DNA of 64,000 bases from Pseudomonadota bacterium (GTDB lineage: Bacteria; Pseudomonadota; Gammaproteobacteria; Xanthomonadales; Rhodanobacteraceae). Shown here in pieces: positions 2,394 through 49,996 of this stretch. The DNA is taken from NCBI GenBank assembly GCA_021793575.1, contig JAJYSM010000003.1, positions 1 to 64,000 of the forward strand, written 5' to 3'. The number at the start of each line of letters is the position of its first letter. Position 1 is the first letter of the stretch. Made by a program: the position numbers and the translations under genes. The notes beneath the pieces are model-generated. The model worked only from the letters and a program-made list of their open reading frames with translations. It had not been told where the DNA came from and did no database searches.

Positions 2394-2615
2394 GCGATTC
2401 TCCGGTGAGCTGAGGGCAAAGCCACCGCGCGAAAACCTGTCGCGACATGGACTCAGATGGCGGATGCTAGCCCCCAGCCGCCATGCTTAACCCATGCCGA
2501 AGGTCACGGCCGGCGTCCGGAAACACCGCAGGCCCGCGGATCGCAGCCGATAATGGCACCCGTCTTGCATCACTCAGGCGATGGCGGGTTTCTGCCCCGC
2601 CGACCGAGACCCCGC

Positions 2616-3689
2616 ATGCTCGCCGTGTTCGTCAGCGTTCCACCGGACGCCGACGCGAATCAGCGCCGCGAATTCACGCACTACCTGGCGCAGCGCATGC
2701 GCCCGGTGATCCGTGCGCTGATGCTGGTGGCGGTGTTCGGCTATGTCGCCGGCACGGCGGCCAGCGCGTTGGTCGCCGCCAGCACGGTGCCGCTGTGGCT
2801 GCGCCTGCTGCCGATGTTGCCGCTGCTGCTGGTGGCCGCCTGCAGCGGGCGCGCCCAGCGACCGTGGCAGCTCAGCGTGCTGACGCTGAGCTGCGTGCTG
2901 CTGCTGGAGATCGGCAGCAACCTCAATGGATTCGGTCGGCTGCAGGGCCTGCCGTGGGTGATGCCGGGCACCCTGCTGATACCGGTGGCCTCGGCGGCGA
3001 TCTGGCTGGCACGCTGGGATTTCATCGCCGGCATGGTGCTGTGCGCGCTCGGGCCGATGCCGATGTTGCTGCTTGGCGATGCCGACTACGCACAGGTTTT
3101 TCCGTACTTGGTGTATCTGGTGATCGCCATTGCGCTGGCCAGCGTGCTGCGCGCCTTCATGGCGCGCACGCAGTTCGAGCATTTCCGGCTGGAGCGGCAG
3201 CTGCGCGAGCAGGCCAGCACCGACGGCCTCACCGGCCTGCTGCGGCGCAACCGCTTTCTGGAACTGGCGCGGCTCGCGCTGGACGAGGCGCGGCGCCAGC
3301 AGCAGCCGGCCTGCATGCTCTATCTGGATGCCGACCGCTTCAAGCAGCTCAACGACAGCCACGGTCACGCCGCCGGCGATGCCGCACTGGTCGCGCTGGC
3401 CGCCGCGCTGCGTGCTCAGACGCGCCAGAGCGACCTGATCGGGCGCATCGGCGGCGAGGAGTTCGGCCTGCTGCTGCCCGGCCTCGATCTGGCGCAGGCC
3501 AGCCAGCGTGCCGAGCGGCTGCGCGTGGCGATGCACGAGGTCCGGCGCCCGGACGGTCCGCTTACCGTCAGCATCGGCGTGGCTGCGCGCAGTACGCCCG
3601 ACGAGCCGCTCGAATCACTGCTGGCCCGCGCCGACAAGGCCATGCGTCAGGCCAAGGCCGACGGCCGCGACCGCATCGTCTGCGCCTGA
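2616..3689 (+). CDS. Membrane-anchored diguanylate cyclase (GGDEF)
   Basis: This protein of about 357 residues makes cyclic di-GMP from two GTP. The N-terminal half holds about six hydrophobic segments with no recognisable sensor family. The C-terminal GGDEF domain starts at STDGLTGLLRR. The active-site motif is GGEEF (about residues 279-283). An RQSD motif five residues upstream is the inhibitory I-site, so product feedback control is expected. The ORF is open from 2457, but the residues before MLAVFVSV look non-coding, so I chose the ATG at 2616. ATG 2553 is an alternative. It runs convergently into the permease gene with a 25-nt gap. Confidence 0.9.
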   Translation: MLAVFVSVPPDADANQRREFTHYLAQRMRPVIRALMLVAVFGYVAGTAASALVAASTVPLWLRLLPMLPLLLVAACSGRAQRPWQLSVLTLSCVLLLEIGSNLNGFGRLQGLPWVMPGTLLIPVASAAIWLARWDFIAGMVLCALGPMPMLLLGDADYAQVFPYLVYLVIAIALASVLRAFMARTQFEHFRLERQLREQASTDGLTGLLRRNRFLELARLALDEARRQQQPACMLYLDADRFKQLNDSHGHAAGDAALVALAAALRAQTRQSDLIGRIGGEEFGLLLPGLDLAQASQRAERLRVAMHEVRRPDGPLTVSIGVAARSTPDEPLESLLARADKAMRQAKADGRDRIVCA

Positions 3690-3714: not shown

Positions 3715-5220
3715 TCAGGCGTGGCTGGCCAGCCGGCTGTGGCGGATGCCGTAGCCGAAGTAGATCACGCAGCCCAGCGCCATCCAGATCACGAAGCGCT
3801 CGTAGGTGATCCACGGCAGGCCGTAGATCAGCACCGCGGAAAACGCGATGCCCAGCGGCGCGGTGAACCACACCGCCGGCGTCTTGAAATGGCGCGGCAG
3901 CTGCGGCCGGCGCACGCGCAGCAGCAGCACCGCAGCACAGATGATGATGAACGCGCTGAGCGTGCCGATGTTCACCAGCTCGGCCACTTCGCCAATCGGC
4001 AGCAGGCCCGCCACCACCGCCGTGAACAGCCCGAGGATGAGGGTGGGCCGCGCCGGCGTGCCGAAGCGCGGGCTCACTTTCGCAAACCAGCCAGGCAGCA
4101 GGCCGTCGCGCGCCAGCGCAAACCAGATCCGCGCCGCGCCCAGCATGAAGGCGAACAGCACGCTGGTGACGCCGATCACCGCCGCCGCCGCGACGGTGAT
4201 GCTGAGCCAGTTGAGGCCGATCGAGGCGAACGCGTCGGACACCGAGGCGTCGCCGCCCAGGTTGTGGTACGAGGTGATGCCGGTGAGCACCAGCGACACC
4301 GCGATATACAACACCATCGCCACCGCCAGCGACAGCAGCACCGCGCGCGGCAGGTCGCGCTGCGGATGCTTCGCCTCCTCCGCCGCGGTGGTCAGCGTGT
4401 CGTAGCCGAACACCGCGAAAAACACCACGCTGGCGCCGGTCAGTACGCCCTGCCAGCCGAAGTGGCCGACACCGGTCGCGGCATCGACCACGCGCGGCGG
4501 GATGAACGGATGCCAGTTCGCGGGGTGGATGTAGAACACGCCCACGCCGACCACCAGCAACACGCCGATCACCTTGATCGCCACCACCGCCGTGTTGAAG
4601 CGCGCGCCCCATTCGGTACGCACGGTGAGCAGCACGGCCACGGCCATCGACACCACGGCGGCAATCACGTTGAAGCGGTGGCCGTCGCCGGGCGCGGCGA
4701 TGGCGGTGCTGCCATGCAGCCCGAACAGCTGCTGCAGGTAATACTCCATCGTCGGCGCGCTCATGCTCTGCTGCGCCCACACCGGCAGATGCACGCCGGC
4801 CGAGCTCAGCAGCACCTGCACGTAGCCGGACCAGCCGATCGCCACCACCGCCACCACCAGCGCGTATTCCAGCAGCAGATCCCAGCCGATGATCCACGCG
4901 GCGAATTCGCCGAGCACCGCATAGCCGTAGGTATACGCGCTGCCGGTGACCGGGATCAGCCCGGCGAATTCGGCGTAGCACAGCGCAGCGCAGGCGCTGC
5001 CGGAACCGGCGATGAGAAAACTCAGCACCACCGCCGGCCCCGCATTGGCGGCGGCCTGCTGGCCGGCCAGCACGAAGATGCCGACCCCGATGATGCCGCC
5101 GATGCCGATCGCGGTGAGCTGCCACAGCCCCAGCACGCGGCGGAAATCGCGCCGCGTGACCACCTCGGTCTGCAGCTGTTCGATCGACTTGTGCCGCACC
5201 AGCTTGCTGAAGAAACCCAT
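3715..5220 (-). CDS. APC-superfamily amino acid permease (cationic amino acid transporter-like)
   Basis: This 501-residue protein has about 12 to 14 transmembrane segments. The APC signature GIGGIIGVGIFVLAG lies in TM1 (about 40-54) and a conserved SSVLFAF-like stretch lies later. Overall arrangement and length match the CAT/YfnA branch of the amino acid-polyamine-organocation superfamily, which takes up amino acids by proton symport in the inner membrane. The ATG is preceded by a GGGGGT ribosome-binding sequence. It is a single gene, convergent with the diguanylate cyclase and divergent from the methyltransferase. The substrate (cationic or broad neutral amino acid) cannot be decided from sequence. 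Confidence 0.93.
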   Translation of the reverse strand: MGFFSKLVRHKSIEQLQTEVVTRRDFRRVLGLWQLTAIGIGGIIGVGIFVLAGQQAAANAGPAVVLSFLIAGSGSACAALCYAEFAGLIPVTGSAYTYGYAVLGEFAAWIIGWDLLLEYALVVAVVAIGWSGYVQVLLSSAGVHLPVWAQQSMSAPTMEYYLQQLFGLHGSTAIAAPGDGHRFNVIAAVVSMAVAVLLTVRTEWGARFNTAVVAIKVIGVLLVVGVGVFYIHPANWHPFIPPRVVDAATGVGHFGWQGVLTGASVVFFAVFGYDTLTTAAEEAKHPQRDLPRAVLLSLAVAMVLYIAVSLVLTGITSYHNLGGDASVSDAFASIGLNWLSITVAAAAVIGVTSVLFAFMLGAARIWFALARDGLLPGWFAKVSPRFGTPARPTLILGLFTAVVAGLLPIGEVAELVNIGTLSAFIIICAAVLLLRVRRPQLPRHFKTPAVWFTAPLGIAFSAVLIYGLPWITYERFVIWMALGCVIYFGYGIRHSRLASHA

Positions 5221-5342
5221 TGTCTGACCCCCGTGAGCAAGCGGCGATCATAGCGAATACCTGTCCAGCTGCCTGCATGCGCGCTGCCTTACAGCGACGC
5301 GAACGGCTAGACTTCCAGCCCTGCTTCCATGCGAGCTCGCTG

Positions 5343-6248: not shown

Positions 6249-7505
6249 AGTGAGATCGGCTTCCGCGCCTCGTGGACGCTGGCCGACAACCCACGGCAGC
6301 GCCAGCGCACTGAGTCCGAACAGCGCGGCGATGGCCAAGGCGATATGGCCGTCCAGACGGCTATCGCCGAACCACTGCCCGGTCAGCAGCGGCAGCAGCG
6401 CCGTGGCCAGCAGCCGCAGCGCTTCCGCCCACGGCGCCCAGCGCCGCCCTTCCATCAGCGCGCCCAGCACGCACAGGCCCGCCACCAGATAGGCGGCATA
6501 GGCCAGCAGCGTCGGCAGGCGCGCCGTGGCGGCCAGGCCGAGAAACTGCGTGGCCATCGCCAGCAGCAGCGCGAACTGCAGCAGCACATACACCGTCAGC
6601 GCCCGCGACAGCGGCGGATCGAAGCGCTCACCGCTCATCACGAAGGCCGGCTTCGGATAACGCGCCGCCACGTCGGCCGGCCGCCAGCCCGGCGGCTGCA
6701 GCCAGATCAGCAGCTTGTCGCGCCAGCGCCGCGCGTGCCATGCATCCACCGCCGTACTCCAGTACACCTCGGCATTCGCCCACAACGGGTTCCAGCTGCG
6801 CAGCGGCGAGCGCGTGCCGTACACCGGCGGCTCGTCGTCGCACTCCTCCACGAACGTGCCGAACAGCCGGTCCCACACGATCAGGATGCCGCCGTAGTTG
6901 CGGTCGAGGTAGCGCTCGTTCACCGCGTGATGGGCGCGGTGGTTGGACGGCGAGCAGAACACGCGATCGAACCAGCCGAGTCGGCCGATCTGTTCGGTAT
7001 GCACCCAGAACTGGTACAGCAGGTCGACCAGCGCCACCATCACGAACACGTCCAGCGGCACCCCGAGCAGCGCCAGCGGCAGATAGAACAGCCAGCCCAG
7101 CAGCACGCCGCTGCCGGTCTGGCGCAGCGCGGTGGACAGGTTGTAGTGCTCGCTCTGGTGATGCACCACGTGCGCGGCCCACAGGATGTTCACGCGGTGG
7201 CCGCAGCGGTGCAGCCAGTAGTAGCAGAAGTCGTACAGCAGCAGCGCCAGCGCCCATACCCACACGCTGTGCGGCGGCAGCGCGAACAGCGCCAGATGCT
7301 GCACGCACCACGCATAGATGCCGAACGTCAGCAGCTTGCCGAACACGCCGACGATCTGCGAGATCACCCCCAGCCCGATGCTGCTGACCGCATCGTTGCC
7401 GGCATACGCACGCCGACCGCGCCGGTGCGCCACCAGCAGCTCCAGCGCGATCAGCGCAAAGAACACCGGCGTGGCCCAGCGAATGATGGTTTCCTGCAGG
7501 TGCAT
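6237..7505 (-). CDS. Sterol desaturase / fatty acid hydroxylase family membrane protein
   Basis: This protein of 422 residues is a di-iron membrane oxygenase of the fatty acid hydroxylase superfamily. The histidine clusters are present: HRCGH, HVVHH and NHRAHH, with an additional HTEQIG. They lie between hydrophobic segments in the first 230 residues. After the catalytic domain comes a further C-terminal region of about 120 residues with four or so hydrophobic helices, the arrangement seen in alkylglycerol-monooxygenase-like proteins. I chose the start at 7505 because GGAGGGG sits about 6 nt upstream; the track start at 7550 has no such site. The gene ends inside the convergent methyltransferase gene. 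The likely role is hydroxylation or desaturation of a lipid; the substrate is unknown. Confidence 0.88.
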   Translation of the reverse strand: MHLQETIIRWATPVFFALIALELLVAHRRGRRAYAGNDAVSSIGLGVISQIVGVFGKLLTFGIYAWCVQHLALFALPPHSVWVWALALLLYDFCYYWLHRCGHRVNILWAAHVVHHQSEHYNLSTALRQTGSGVLLGWLFYLPLALLGVPLDVFVMVALVDLLYQFWVHTEQIGRLGWFDRVFCSPSNHRAHHAVNERYLDRNYGGILIVWDRLFGTFVEECDDEPPVYGTRSPLRSWNPLWANAEVYWSTAVDAWHARRWRDKLLIWLQPPGWRPADVAARYPKPAFVMSGERFDPPLSRALTVYVLLQFALLLAMATQFLGLAATARLPTLLAYAAYLVAGLCVLGALMEGRRWAPWAEALRLLATALLPLLTGQWFGDSRLDGHIALAIAALFGLSALALPWVVGQRPRGAEADLTSVA

Positions 7506-7609
7506 CGCAACCCCTCCGCTTCGATCGCGCTGTGCCGTTGCGCCATTCACCAGCCGACAGTCCTGGCGACGAAGCCGCAGTGTAAGTCAGCTTCGTCCCG
7601 CGCTGCCGC

Positions 7610-8407
7610 TCAGCCGCCGACGCGGGACGGCAGCCGCAGCCGATCGGTGAACAGCCCGTCCACGCCCAATGCCAGCAGTCGCGCGGCAGTGCGTGCGCGG
7701 TTGACGGTGTAAACGCGCAGTGCGAGACCGGCGTGGTGCACCGCCCGCACATCGGCGGCGCGCAACCCGCGCCATTCACAATGCAGCGCTTCCGCGCGCA
7801 ACACCTGCGCCACGCGGATGTCGCTGCGGGAAAAGCGCTCATGCAGACAGGCCAGCGGCAGCGCCACCGCCAGTGCATCGAGCTGCGCGCGCGCCGCCTG
7901 CAGTGCCGTCGGCGAGAATGACGACAGCAGCGGTGCCGGCACCGCCGGGTGCCGCCGCGCCCACGCGGCGGTGCGCGTCGCTACCGCGTGGCCGGTGGCG
8001 ACCTCGGTGCCCGGACAGGGCTTGATTTCGAGGTTCAGCCAGACCCCATGGGTGGCGGCAAACGCCAGCACCTGATCGAGGCTGGCCAGCGGCTCGCCGC
8101 GATAGCGCGCGCTGTGCCAGGCGCCGGCGTCCAGCCGTTGCAACCGCGCCCACGGCCATGCCGCCGCCGGGCCGTGCGCATCGGTGGTACGCGTCAGGGT
8201 GTCGTCGTGCAGCAGATAGGGCACGCCGTCGCTGCTGAGCTTCACATCGCATTCGAAGGCGCGGAAACCTGCCGCCAGCCCGGCCCGGAAAGCCGCCAGC
8301 GTGTTCTCCGGTGCCGCGCTGCCGCCGCCGCGGTGAGCCAGCCAGCGCCGGTCGATAGCGGCGCCATCGCGGCCAGTCACGCGATCATCCGGCGCAGCGG
8401 ACGTCAT
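7610..8407 (-). CDS. ugpQ: Glycerophosphodiester phosphodiesterase, last gene of the G3P operon
   Basis: This 265-residue protein hydrolyses glycerophosphodiesters to glycerol-3-phosphate and an alcohol. The GDPD motifs are clear: HRGG near residue 26, APENT, FECDVKLSSDG and LHDDTLTRTTD. There is no signal peptide, which fits the cytoplasmic UgpQ type. Its start overlaps the glpD stop by 4 bp (ATGA), so the two are translationally coupled. It lies at the end of a ugpB-A-E-C-glpD-ugpQ operon. G3P released from imported diesters would pass straight to GlpD. Confidence 0.93.
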   Translation of the reverse strand: MTSAAPDDRVTGRDGAAIDRRWLAHRGGGSAAPENTLAAFRAGLAAGFRAFECDVKLSSDGVPYLLHDDTLTRTTDAHGPAAAWPWARLQRLDAGAWHSARYRGEPLASLDQVLAFAATHGVWLNLEIKPCPGTEVATGHAVATRTAAWARRHPAVPAPLLSSFSPTALQAARAQLDALAVALPLACLHERFSRSDIRVAQVLRAEALHCEWRGLRAADVRAVHHAGLALRVYTVNRARTAARLLALGVDGLFTDRLRLPSRVGG

Positions 8408-43996: not shown

Positions 43997-45406
43997 TCAG
44001 ATCGCGTAGTACATCTGAAACTCCAGCGGGTGCGTGCTGGCGCGGTAGCGGGTGACTTCCTTCATCTTCACTTCGATGTAAGCGTCGATGAAGTCATCGG
44101 TGAACACACCGCCGGCCTTGAGGAAGTCGCGATCCTTGTCCAGCGCCTCCAGCGCCTGGTCGAGGCTGGAGCACACCTGCGGAATGTTCTTCTCCTCTTC
44201 CGGCGGCAGGTCGTACAGATCCTTGTCAGCCGGCGCGCCGGGGTCGATCTTGTTGAGGATGCCGTCGAGGCCAGCCATCATCAGCGCGGTGAAGGTGAGG
44301 TAGCCGGACTGCATCGGATCGGGGAAGCGCACCTCGATGCGCCGACCCTTGGGGCTGGCCACGTACGGGATGCGGCAGCTGGCCGAGCGGTTGCGCGCGG
44401 AGTACGCCAGCATCACCGGCGCCTCGAAGCCCGGCACCAGCCGCTTGTAGCTGTTGGTGGTGGAGTTGGCGAACGCGTTGATCGCCTTGGCATGCTTGAA
44501 GATGCCGCCGATGTACCACAGCGCGGTCTGCGACAGGCCGCCGTAGAGGTCGCCGGCGAACAGGTTGGTGCCGTCCTTGGACAGCGACTGGTGCACGTGC
44601 ATGCCGCTGCCGTTGTCGCCGACGATCGGCTTGGGCATGAAGGTGACGGTCTTGCCGTTCTGGTGCGCCACGTTCTTCACCACGTACTTCATGGTGATCA
44701 GCTCGTCGGCCTTCTTCACCAGCGTGTTGAACTTGACGCCGATCTCGCACTGGCCGGCGTTGGCCACTTCGTGATGGTGCACTTCGACCGTCTGGCCGAG
44801 CGATTCGAGCACTTTGCACATGTCGGCGCGCAGGTCGCCCAGCGAATCGACCGGGCTGACCGGAAAATAGCCGCCCTTCACGCCCGGCCGGTGGCCGCTG
44901 TTGCCTTCGTCGTACTTGTTGCGCGAGGACCAGGCCGCTTCCTCAGACTCGATCTCGTAGAACACGCGGCCCATGTCGTTCTGCCAGCGCACCGAGTCGA
45001 AGATGAAGAATTCCGGCTCCGGACCGAAGTACGCGGTGTCGGCGATCCCGGTGGATTTGAGGAACGCCTCGCCGCGCTTGGCGATCGAGCGCGGGTCGCG
45101 ACCATAGGCCTGCATGGTGCTCGGCTCCAGCACGTCGCAGTGCACGATCAGCTGGGTGTGCGAGCTGAACGGATCCAGGTGCGCGGTCGCCGGATCGGGC
45201 AGCAACACCATGTCCGACTCGTTGATGCCCTTCCAGCCGGTGATCGACGAGCCGTCGAACATCTTGCCGTCCTCGAACGTCGACTCGTCGATGGCGTGCG
45301 CCGGAAAGGTGACGTGGTGGTGCACGCCGAGCATGTCGGCAAAGCGGAAGTCGACAAACTCGACCTCGTGTTCCTGAATCAGATCGAGCACTTTCTTGGC
45401 GGACAT
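43997..45406 (-). CDS. glnA: Glutamine synthetase, type I (adenylylated form)
   Basis: This 469-residue enzyme makes glutamine from glutamate, ammonia and ATP. It shows [18 protein letters not shown], the metal/glutamate site sequence [11 protein letters not shown], the ATP region [17 protein letters not shown] and the adenylylation site [10 protein letters not shown], so regulation by GlnE is expected. Translation likely starts at 45406 (MSAKKVLDL), with CGAGG upstream; the track start at 45445 lies at the sigma-54 promoter. It is transcribed alone, from a -24/-12 promoter. Confidence 0.97.
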
Positions 45407-45440
45407 AACGCAACCTCGGACGTGGGTGATAGCCGGTTTT

Positions 45441-45456
45441 AGCAAGCCTCATGCCA
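45441..45456 (-). promoter_or_regulatory. Sigma-54 promoter of glnA
   Basis: The minus strand reads TGGCATG-AGGC-TTGCT, against the consensus TGGCACG-N4-TTGCW, with exact GG/GC spacing. Predicted transcription starts about 12 nt downstream, leaving a leader of about 25 nt before the glnA ATG. It is the expected kind of promoter for NtrC-controlled glnA. Confidence 0.8.
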
Positions 45457-45550
45457 TAACGTGAAAGCGCGGGGCCACAGGCCGTGACGCTTCGGAACCG
45501 CGCCGCGGGCTTGGCCTGTCGCATCATGCTCGGGCAATTTCAGGATAGTT

Positions 45551-45567
45551 TGCACCAAATTGTGGCG
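45551..45567. promoter_or_regulatory. Candidate NtrC enhancer site for glnA
   Basis: TGCACCAAATTGTGGCG matches the first half of the NtrC site (TGCACC-N5-GGTGCA) exactly and the second half partly. It lies about 100 bp upstream of the glnA -24 element, the normal distance for an enhancer. Confidence 0.55.
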
Positions 45568-45621
45568 TCGCGACCACACGGCCAACAGCGGGTTCGCGCA
45601 ACTGGCACGAACCCGCCGCGA

Positions 45622-46983
45622 TCACGCCTCGTAGGCGCTCTCGCCATGCGAGCTGATATCCAGCCCCTCGCGCTCGGCCTCGGCGCTGACGCGCAGTCCG
45701 AACACCTGCTTGACGATGAAGTAGGCGAGCAGCGAAACCCCGCCGCTCCACGCCAGGGTGATGCCCACGCCGAGCGCCTGCACGCCGACCTGCTGCGCCA
45801 TCGTGGTGATGCCGGCGCCGAAGCCGGTGCCGCCCAGGATCGGCGCGCTGAACACGCCGGTCAGGATCGCCCCGAGGATGCCGCCGACGCCGTGCACGCC
45901 GAACACGTCGAGCGCGTCGTCCGCCTTGAGGATCTTCTTCAGCCCGGTCACGCCCCAGACGCACGCCGCGCTGGCCAGCGCGCCGATGGCGATGGCGCCC
46001 ATCGGGCCGACCGTGCCGCAGGCCGGGGTGATGGCGACCAGTCCCGCCACGGCGCCGGAGGCGCCGCCCACCATCGAGGGCTTGCCCTTGGTGATGGCCT
46101 CGACCGCCAGCCACGACAGCACCGCCGCCGCCGTCGCCACCATCGTGTTGATGAAGGCCAGCCCCGCGCCGCCGTTGGCCTCCAGGTTGGAGCCGGCATT
46201 GAAGCCGAACCAGCCCACCCACAGCAGCGACGCGCCGATCATGGTGAAGGTCACGCTGTGCGGCTTCATCGACTCGCGGCCCAGGCCGAGGCGCGGCCCG
46301 AGCATGTAGGCGCCGACCAGGCCGGCGATACCGGCGTTGATGTGCACCACCGTGCCGCCGGCGAAATCCAGCACGCCCCTGGCGAACATGAAACCGCTCG
46401 GCCCGTACCACACCATGTGGGCGATCGGCAGATAGGCGAAGGTGAACCACAGCGCGGTGAACGCCAGCACCGCGCGGAAGCGCACCCGCTCGGCCAGCGC
46501 GCCGACGATCAGCGCACAGGTGATGCCGGCAAAGGTGGCCTGGAACATCACGAACACGTATTCCGGCAGGCCCACGCCGGCGCTGAAGGTAGCCGCCAGC
46601 GAGTCCTTGGTGATGCCCTTGAGGAAGAGTTTGTCGAAATTGCCGATGAAGGCATTGCCGCCGTTGAACGCCAGCGTGTAGCCGTAGATCACCCACAGCA
46701 CCACGATCATCGAGAACACCGTCATCACCTGCATCAGCATCGACAGCACGTTCTTGGAGCGCAACAGACCGCCGTAGAACAGCGCCAGCCCCGGCACCGT
46801 CATCATCAACACCAGCAACGTGGAGGTCAGCATCCACGCCACATCGCCCTTGTGCATCACCAGCGGTGGCGCCGCCACGGCGGCCTGCGCCCACGCCAGC
46901 GGCGCGAGCAGACTCAGCAGCAGGCCGATGGCGAGGATGGCCCAGCCCTTGCGCATGTCACGAAACAACTTGATGTCTTTCAT
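45622..46983 (-). CDS. amtB: Ammonium transporter
   Basis: This 453-residue inner-membrane protein has an N-terminal signal-like segment and 11 transmembrane helices. Family sequences include MVWYGPSGFMFARGVLDFAGGTVVHINAGIAGL and FGFNAGSNLEANGGAGLAF, with the twin histidines expected for AmtB channels (HINAG; HGVGG). It conducts ammonia and is blocked by the P-II protein GlnK encoded 21 nt upstream. It is the last gene of the porin-glnK-amtB unit; an intergenic gap with the glnA promoter follows. Confidence 0.96.
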   Translation of the reverse strand: MKDIKLFRDMRKGWAILAIGLLLSLLAPLAWAQAAVAAPPLVMHKGDVAWMLTSTLLVLMMTVPGLALFYGGLLRSKNVLSMLMQVMTVFSMIVVLWVIYGYTLAFNGGNAFIGNFDKLFLKGITKDSLAATFSAGVGLPEYVFVMFQATFAGITCALIVGALAERVRFRAVLAFTALWFTFAYLPIAHMVWYGPSGFMFARGVLDFAGGTVVHINAGIAGLVGAYMLGPRLGLGRESMKPHSVTFTMIGASLLWVGWFGFNAGSNLEANGGAGLAFINTMVATAAAVLSWLAVEAITKGKPSMVGGASGAVAGLVAITPACGTVGPMGAIAIGALASAACVWGVTGLKKILKADDALDVFGVHGVGGILGAILTGVFSAPILGGTGFGAGITTMAQQVGVQALGVGITLAWSGGVSLLAYFIVKQVFGLRVSAEAEREGLDISSHGESAYEA

Positions 46984-47004
46984 GGAAACCTCACGGGATT
47001 CGAG

Positions 47005-48679
<1,675 letters not shown>

Positions 48680-48684
48680 CACGG

Positions 48685-48713
48685 GCCTCCTGCAACCGCT
48701 TCGGTTTGGAGGC
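48685..48713 (-). promoter_or_regulatory. Hairpin that covers the porin ribosome-binding site
   Basis: On the minus strand GCCTCC pairs with GGAGGC, and the inner AACCG pairs with CGGTT around a 3-nt loop. The 3' arm contains the AGGAGG Shine-Dalgarno sequence of the porin gene. In the folded form the ribosome site would be masked, so translation may be regulated or delayed. This is structural inference from the sequence. Confidence 0.55.
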
Positions 48714-48943
48714 TGAAAAAGTGGGCGCTGCCTGGTGCAGGTCTGGCCGATGAACATCCTGTGGCTGCGGCGGCGCGAATGGCGCGGGAGACTGCTGCCT
48801 TGATCGACCGGCACACAGACACAGCGGACACATCCGCAACCTTCGCCGGCATATCGGCATTGACGAACGGAGGCACAGACAAGGGTCGTACATCGCTTCA
48901 TCGACTTGGCTCCAGTTGAGATCAGGAGTAGCTCGATGGGTTT

Positions 48944-48959
48944 AGCAAGACCGGTGCCA
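48944..48959 (-). promoter_or_regulatory. Sigma-54 promoter of the porin-glnK-amtB unit
   Basis: The minus strand reads TGGCACC-GGTC-TTGCT, matching the -24/-12 consensus with correct spacing. Two NtrC-like half-sites (TGCACCAAA at 49053 and TGCACCGG at 49087) lie about 95 to 145 bp upstream. The porin ATG is about 250 nt downstream of the predicted start, leaving an unusually long leader. Confidence 0.8.
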
Positions 48960-49195
48960 TGCAATTACATTAATGAATACAATACGTTGGGTTGAACCAG
49001 TGGCCCGACTCATGCTGCATTGCATCATTCAAGAGCAAGAGGCTGAGCGATTTGCACCAAACCCGCCAACCGGAAAGTGGAGCGGATGCACCGGTCTGCC
49101 GATTGCCCACGGAATAATCATGCCGTGCCGCGCAGGCAGTAAACTGCTGCGCTTTGCCGTAACCCTCGCGCCATCTACCCCGGACCCGCCAACCC

Positions 49196-49996
49196 GTGAG
49201 CGATCTCATTCGCGTCATCCTGCTCGGCATCATCGAAGGCATCACCGAGTTCCTGCCCATCTCCAGCACCGGACATTTGCTGATCGCCGAAAAATTCGGC
49301 CTCGGCGCGCGTTCGGATCTGTTCAACGTGGGCATCCAGGCGGGCGCGATCCTGGCGGTAACGATGGTGTACTGGTCGCGCATCTGGCAGTTGTTCACGC
49401 AGTGGCGCGTGCCGGCCAACCGCGATTACCTGCTGAAGCTGTTCGTCAGCTTCATGATCACCAGCGCGATCGGTGCGGTGGTGGTCATGCATTTCCACTT
49501 CAAGCTGCCCGCCACGGTGACCCCGATCGCGTGGGCGCTGGTGCTCGGCGGCGTGTGGATGATCGCGGCCGAACAGCTGGCCGCGCGCCAGCCCGATCGC
49601 AGCGAAGTCACCTGGCGAGTGGCGATCCTGGTCGGCATCGCGCAGATGGTGGCCGGTATCTTTCCCGGCACCTCGCGCTCGTCGGCGACCATCTTCACCG
49701 CCATGCTGGCGGGTACCAGCAACCGCGCCGCGGCCACCGAGTTCGCTTTCCTGGTGGGCATCCCCACCATGTACGCCGCCACCGGCTACGAGCTGCTGAA
49801 AGTGCTCAAGGACGGCGGCGCGGCCAGCGAGGACTGGACCGCGCTGGCGGTGGGCTTCGTGGTCTCGGCGATCGTCGCGTTCATCGCCATCAAGTGGCTG
49901 CTCGGCTATATCCGCAGCCACCGTTTCACCGCGTTCTCGATCTACCGCATCGCGCTCGGTATCGCGCTGCTGTGGCTGATGCCGGCAGGCGCGTAA
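49196..49996 (+). CDS. uppP: Undecaprenyl-diphosphate phosphatase
   Basis: This 266-residue polytopic membrane protein recycles the lipid carrier for cell-wall synthesis by removing one phosphate from undecaprenyl diphosphate. The two signature motifs are EGITEFLPISSTGHL (about 14-28) and PGTSRSSATI. Length equals the BacA/UppP family norm. It begins at GTG; no ATG gives a fitting N-terminus. It also confers tolerance to bacitracin in other species. It converges with the AI-2E-type gene. Confidence 0.96.
   Translation: MSDLIRVILLGIIEGITEFLPISSTGHLLIAEKFGLGARSDLFNVGIQAGAILAVTMVYWSRIWQLFTQWRVPANRDYLLKLFVSFMITSAIGAVVVMHFHFKLPATVTPIAWALVLGGVWMIAAEQLAARQPDRSEVTWRVAILVGIAQMVAGIFPGTSRSSATIFTAMLAGTSNRAAATEFAFLVGIPTMYAATGYELLKVLKDGGAASEDWTALAVGFVVSAIVAFIAIKWLLGYIRSHRFTAFSIYRIALGIALLWLMPAGA

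Follow-up and report, generated by a model that had tools for sequence, protein, structure and literature searches.

A BBP2 (OmpL-like) outer-membrane porin gene was found at the head of a glnK-amtB unit on the minus strand of the window, which is the whole 64,000-nucleotide stretch of DNA analysed and comes from a Rhodanobacter-like bacterium. At this place most loci of the same genus carry the gene of an unrelated barrel protein, TorF (Gcw_chp). The reading preferred here, to which a probability of about 0.68 is given, is that of a nitrogen-starvation operon under NtrC and sigma-54, in which a porin of a family mainly linked to Kdp and ammonium uptake displaced TorF, kept its promoter and would provide a route for ammonium across the outer membrane. 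The promoter, the enhancer motif, the gene identities, the displacement, the TorF fossil and the distribution of neighbours were each established by sequence comparison.

Gene organisation of the unit

The P-II gene is followed by the ammonium transporter gene on one strand, as in a glnK-amtB operon (unit 45622-48679; Table 1). The first-pass annotation had placed an outer-membrane porin rather than glnK at the start of this unit, and the gene order BBP2 porin-glnK-amtB bears this out. The porin matched PF07642 over residues 71-399, far above the cut-off of 26.2 bits. BBP2 was the only profile matched by this protein, with no match to Gcw_chp (PF09694), and neither Gcw_chp nor KdpA was found anywhere in the window genome.

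Table 1. Features of the porin-glnK-amtB unit and of the glnA unit downstream, in window coordinates
Feature	Position	Strand	Evidence or remark
glnA, type I glutamine synthetase, own unit downstream	43997-45406	-	TIGR00653
glnA -24/-12 promoter TGGCATGAGGCTTGCT	45441-45456	-	pattern match
Second TTTGGTGCAAA copy, at glnA promoter	45549-45559	-	genome-wide 11-mer occurrence
amtB, ammonium transporter, 453 aa	45622-46983	-	PF00909, TIGR00836
glnK, P-II, 112 aa, Tyr51 present	47005-47343	-	PF00543
BBP2 (OmpL-like) outer-membrane porin, 399 aa, N-terminal signal peptide	47480-48679	-	PF07642, 232.7 bits
Leader, 254 nt, predicted start to porin ATG	48680-48933	-	sequence
Shine-Dalgarno AGGAGG of porin	48686-48691	-	six bases before ATG; similar element in L146
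Fossil 5' end of displaced TorF/Gcw_chp	48824-48901	-	alignment with TorF genes of relatives
Predicted sigma-54 -24/-12 promoter TGGCACCGGTCTTGCT	48944-48959	-	exact consensus match; predicted +1 = 48933
NtrC-like enhancer half-site TTTGGTGCAAA	49051-49061	-	92 bp upstream of porin-unit -24 element

Promoter, enhancer and regulators

The element upstream of the porin gene reads TGGCAC-N5-TTGC with GG and GC 12 bp apart, and its -12 C at 48945 sets the predicted start. It had been annotated as near-consensus; it is a full match and was correctly located. For the pattern TGGCAYN5TTGCW, 0.12 matches were expected in the window and three were observed; the 3.2-Mb genome gave 15, and none for the reversed pattern. 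The genome contains a single rpoN and one ntrC above the curated cut-off. The third match in the window, at 2554-2569 (+), lies near the start of an open reading frame (2457-3689) resembling a membrane-bound GGDEF protein, and 12 further strict sites in the window genome (G000; L005, L006, L010-L019) are candidate sigma-54 targets.

The first-pass annotation had called NtrC-like half-sites; one such half-site is the 11-mer TTTGGTGCAAA, of which the genome contains exactly two copies, the other one lying 93 bp upstream of the -24/-12 element of glnA. In a second Rhodanobacter clade the enhancer position is occupied by the palindrome GCACTGGAACAGTGC, which we take to resemble the NtrC consensus. 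The GTGCAA half is common to both clades; in the clade of the window the right half of the site is kept and the left half is degenerate. On these grounds, binding of NtrC at TTTGGTGCAAA is likely.

A -24/-12 element was observed at the matching place upstream of TorF- or BBP2-glnK-amtB in many genomes of the genus, while 8 of the 30 same-genus loci (L123, L124, L126-L131), all with TorF-glnK-amtB, showed no strict element in the upstream DNA fetched. Because the place of the promoter recurs in the genus and TTTGGTGCAAA stands at like spacing at this unit and at glnA alone, the predicted control of the unit by sigma-54 and NtrC, as first annotated, is well supported. The opposing case, a sigma-70-type promoter adjoining the porin ATG, was rejected, as a search of the minus strand over 45350-49400 gave no sigma-70-like site.

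Sigma-54 control as a general trait of BBP2 genes was also considered and rejected. A strict -24/-12 element preceded none of 26 BBP2 genes in kdp contexts, and in amt contexts none outside Rhodanobacter, so the regulation is a property of the slot and not of the porin. Upstream of TorF elsewhere in Gammaproteobacteria the pattern used was matched at just 1 of 18 loci, and the control region is therefore not established as general for TorF.

Displacement of TorF by BBP2

The slot between the promoter region and glnK was compared across 30 glnK loci of the genus. TorF, a protein of about 250 aa, occupied it in 25 (by tblastn on all, with PF09694 confirmed on two), BBP2 in three and neither in two. 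The arrangement first annotated, a porin ahead of glnK, stands, but it is not unusual in itself since a membrane-protein gene, that of TorF, is normal at this place in the genus and in many other Gammaproteobacteria; the odd part is BBP2 displacing TorF. As to the check proposed in the first-pass annotation, whether a porin-2-type gene accompanies glnK-amtB in related genomes, BBP2 does so within the genus at those three loci, the window included, the usual companion being TorF. Among the best TorF loci across Gammaproteobacteria, glnK and amt follow TorF in 18 of 30. Of the two loci with neither gene, L141 is empty and L134 has an apparent remnant of the TorF 3' end; both retain the sigma-54 promoter and glnK-amtB. 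With no slot gene in these two genomes, the slot protein is dispensable.

BBP2 is carried by the window, by FW106_bin.6 (L036/L120/L146) and by a third genome (L119/L147); the contig of this third genome ends in an exact 113-bp overlap with contig L037 of FW021_bin.58. The sequences of the window, FW106 and FW021 are from draft genomes, and FW106 confirms the arrangement of the window. As regards DISPLACEMENT and the leader region, TorF is present in G129, to which the window is most closely related by GlnK and AmtB (96%). The DNA of G129 matched the window at 89% over 50319-48881 and at 91.5% over 47408-44374 with TorF between, so the two differ in the slot alone, and the upstream match breaks off shortly after the start of the TorF coding sequence. 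L037 (5902-6100) carries an in-frame fusion in which the signal peptide and the first mature residues of TorF lead into the barrel of mature BBP2; this fusion is known from one genome, and the contig breaks later in that gene. FW106 and FW021 were 95% identical in the porin and 92% in glnK-amtB and just 78% in the upstream region; parts of the locus thus appear to move by recombination. Taken together, the alignments indicate that BBP2 displaced TorF in place and kept the TorF promoter.

Two side observations concern TorF. In L143 the TorF match upstream of glnK falls in two separate pieces, possibly through a frameshift. In L093 a TorF-like sequence (7107-7889, +), recognised by eye, is the immediate downstream neighbour of a BBP2 porin gene; the two barrels can therefore coexist.

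The first-pass estimate of a leader of about 250 nt agrees with the 254 nt counted from the predicted sigma-54 start. Within it lies the fossil of TorF, comprising the former start codon, ATGAAGCGATG at 48901, together with a signal-peptide region that carries an 8-nt deletion. When the first codons are left aside, its local similarity to TorF genes scored 48, and the highest score among 500 shuffles was 36. The length of the leader is accounted for by this decayed 5' end, and the best account of the leader is that of a scar containing this fragment rather than a purpose-made regulatory leader. The kdpB-porin spacer was tried as the source of the lower leader (about 48680-48823) and rejected, the kdp spacers tested showing no similarity above shuffles.

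Family and predicted structure of the porin

The AlphaFold2 model of the porin, built from a 44-sequence alignment, gave a pLDDT of 75.7 and a barrel of about 16 strands. The best solved matches by Foldseek were the general porins BpsOmp38, OmpT and Omp32 (E about 1e-13, 11-15% identity); a search by sequence returned no solved structure. The model is that of an outer-membrane beta-barrel of porin fold. The most conserved motif of the porin (26 letters) sits in a long, poorly resolved loop, and selectivity cannot be read from the model.

Distribution and neighbours of BBP2 porins

The porin is uncommon. In the family it was present in 6 of 118 genomes, with none among the seven other same-genus genomes of that sample, and in the class in 9 of 369, some matches being distant. 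The neighbours of 80 related BBP2 loci were kdpABC in 24, amt, glnK, glnA or gltBD in 22 and an amino-acid permease alone in 6; the remaining 28 had no marker neighbour, some of them explained by short contigs. For any one locus, the chance of kdp lying within 4.5 kb is estimated at a fraction of a percent. A Kup gene adjoins BBP2 in L061. The nearest outgroups of the window porin, L030 and L038 (71%) and L039 (69%), lie inside kdp operons, as do three further close members from the class (L157-L159). BBP2 was also found before glnK-amtB in other lineages (L031, L033, L040, L051, L055, L082).

On the BBP2 tree, parsimony required no fewer than 11 switches between kdp contexts and nitrogen or permease ones; this tree was built quickly and many of its forks are weak, and the directions of change are not established by it. 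Within genus g25, closely related porins belong to a kdp operon in one genome and precede glnK-amtB in a second.

In Acidobacteria (L088, L092, L106-L108 and others) a recurrent cluster of BBP2 porin, APC permease, PP2C phosphatase and Ser/Thr kinase was observed, often beside gltBD, amt or glnA; it is possibly a phosphorylation-controlled module for nitrogen or cation uptake. Viral carriage of the window porin was considered and rejected, as a scan of viral contigs with the porin family gave no relative of it.

Proposed mechanism and alternative roles

Under nitrogen limitation, phosphorylated NtrC and RNA polymerase with sigma-54 would transcribe porin-glnK-amtB, and glnA would be activated likewise. 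The porin would insert as a 16-stranded channel and render the outer membrane more permeable to ammonium, and probably to K+-sized cations too. It would feed import by AmtB, which GlnK would gate, and GlnA would assimilate the ammonium. The substrate is inferred from the use of the slot by two unrelated barrels, the K+/NH4+ pattern of partners and the induction of a Kuenenia BBP2 gene described below. A dedicated outer-membrane ammonium route, as suggested in the first-pass annotation, is plausible, and it has gained support, since TorF or BBP2 is widely found with glnK-amtB and K+ transporters, too, have BBP2 beside them. K+ and NH4+ are ions of similar size. As a wider and tentative proposal, with the odds somewhat against it, BBP2 porins may be channels for small monovalent cations (K+, NH4+) that swap their inner partners between Kdp or Kup and Amt, and bacteria may keep under nitrogen control a dedicated ammonium channel in the outer membrane, drawn from either of the unrelated barrels TorF and BBP2.

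The porin may instead admit small organic nitrogen compounds such as amino acids and urea, or be a starvation-induced general diffusion channel, and this role is somewhat unlikely. An APC amino-acid permease lies near 12 BBP2 loci of Acidobacteria and Opitutaceae, 6 of the 22 nitrogen-type loci among them; the solved structures closest to the model are general porins; and in L081 a divergent gene for a UrtA-like urea-binding protein, recognised by eye (3937-5325, -), adjoins the porin, upstream of which TGGCAT..TTGCA is read. However, the commonest partner of BBP2 is Kdp, followed by amt and glnK, and an organic solute leaves the kdp linkage unexplained.

That the window porin serves K+ rather than ammonium, for charge balance or as K-glutamate in nitrogen shifts, is improbable. 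The kdp neighbours described above, those of the nearest outgroups included, would suit such a role, as would the published Leptospirillum case cited below; yet the window genome lacks KdpA, and the porin gene forms a unit with glnK-amtB whose promoter is of nitrogen type. Equally improbable is a neutral replacement, in which TorF was lost and the incoming porin landed in a dispensable slot without any role in ammonium uptake. Complete loss of the slot gene in two members of the genus is consistent with this, but the porins of the window and L146 differ at codon positions 3:1:2 in the ratio 75:41:22, a third-position bias that points to purifying selection, and BBP2 precedes glnK-amtB in the other lineages listed. 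Least probable, and very much so, is a leader acting as a regulatory RNA or carrying a functional upstream peptide: the fossil start codon retains a ribosome-binding-like sequence, its frame is open into the porin in the window and L146, and the leader diverges between these two less (12%) than the third positions of the porin (19%), but its fold was no better than shuffles (z -0.13) and its sequence gave no Rfam match above the gathering score, its differences are spread over codon positions 1:2:3 (9:6:11), and it aligns with the TorF 5' end. The lower part of the leader is also missing from L037, whose BBP2 frame stays open, and a protein begun at the fossil start would have its signal peptide buried behind an N-terminal extension.

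Ammonium is usually assumed to pass the outer membrane via general porins. On the preferred reading of a nitrogen-starvation operon, the outer-membrane protein of a nitrogen-controlled slot has given way to a second, unrelated one, from a family linked elsewhere to K+ uptake. This suggests a likely role for two barrel families with no assigned substrate, PF09694 and PF07642, and raises the question whether a nitrogen-induced porin is limiting for the entry of ammonium or K+ at low concentration.

Comparison with known systems

BBP2/OmpL porins beside kdp and beside PII-Amt, and an NtrC-dependent membrane protein-glnK-amtB unit, are each already known. No report of the displacement of TorF by BBP2, of the leader fossil or of BBP2 as a common partner of K+ and NH4+ uptake was found in the literature searched, which covered few subscription journals, nor was a paper joining porin, kdp operon and amtB; priority for the displacement and the K+/NH4+ pattern is not certain.

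In Herbaspirillum seropedicae the nlmA-glnK-amtB operon is NtrC-dependent and strongly induced in nitrogen limitation (PMC3023670). Both units carry the gene of a membrane-associated protein ahead of glnK-amtB, the NtrC dependence being predicted for the window; the first gene there encodes NlmA, a membrane protein with no assigned function, and here a BBP2 porin. A BBP2 porin occurs with kdpABC in Leptospirillum (PMC7231039). The kdpABC-BBP2 operons of this organism and of Rhodanobacteraceae (L030/L038/L039) resemble the window unit in that a homologue of its porin, with identity of up to 71%, goes with an inner-membrane uptake system, but the partner is K+ uptake, and 26 kdp loci showed no strict -24/-12 element upstream. 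In Flavobacteriales and in marine viral contigs, PII-Amt-OmpL clusters (PMC8115048) likewise link an OmpL-like porin to glnK-amt, whereas the porin there lies downstream of amtB.

In Kuenenia stuttgartiensis the BBP2 gene KSMBR1_3177 is strongly upregulated under ammonium limitation, and ammonium influx was proposed by its authors (PMC7438415). It has the BBP2 family in common with the window porin, and unlike the latter it was not reported inside a glnK-amtB unit. A further close counterpart is the TorF/Gcw_chp-glnK-amtB operon of Rhodanobacter and other Gammaproteobacteria, which has the same slot, gene order and downstream genes, and the promoter in many members of the genus. It differs in the slot protein, TorF (PF09694) there being replaced here by an unrelated 399-aa BBP2, with TorF present only as a fragment in the leader.
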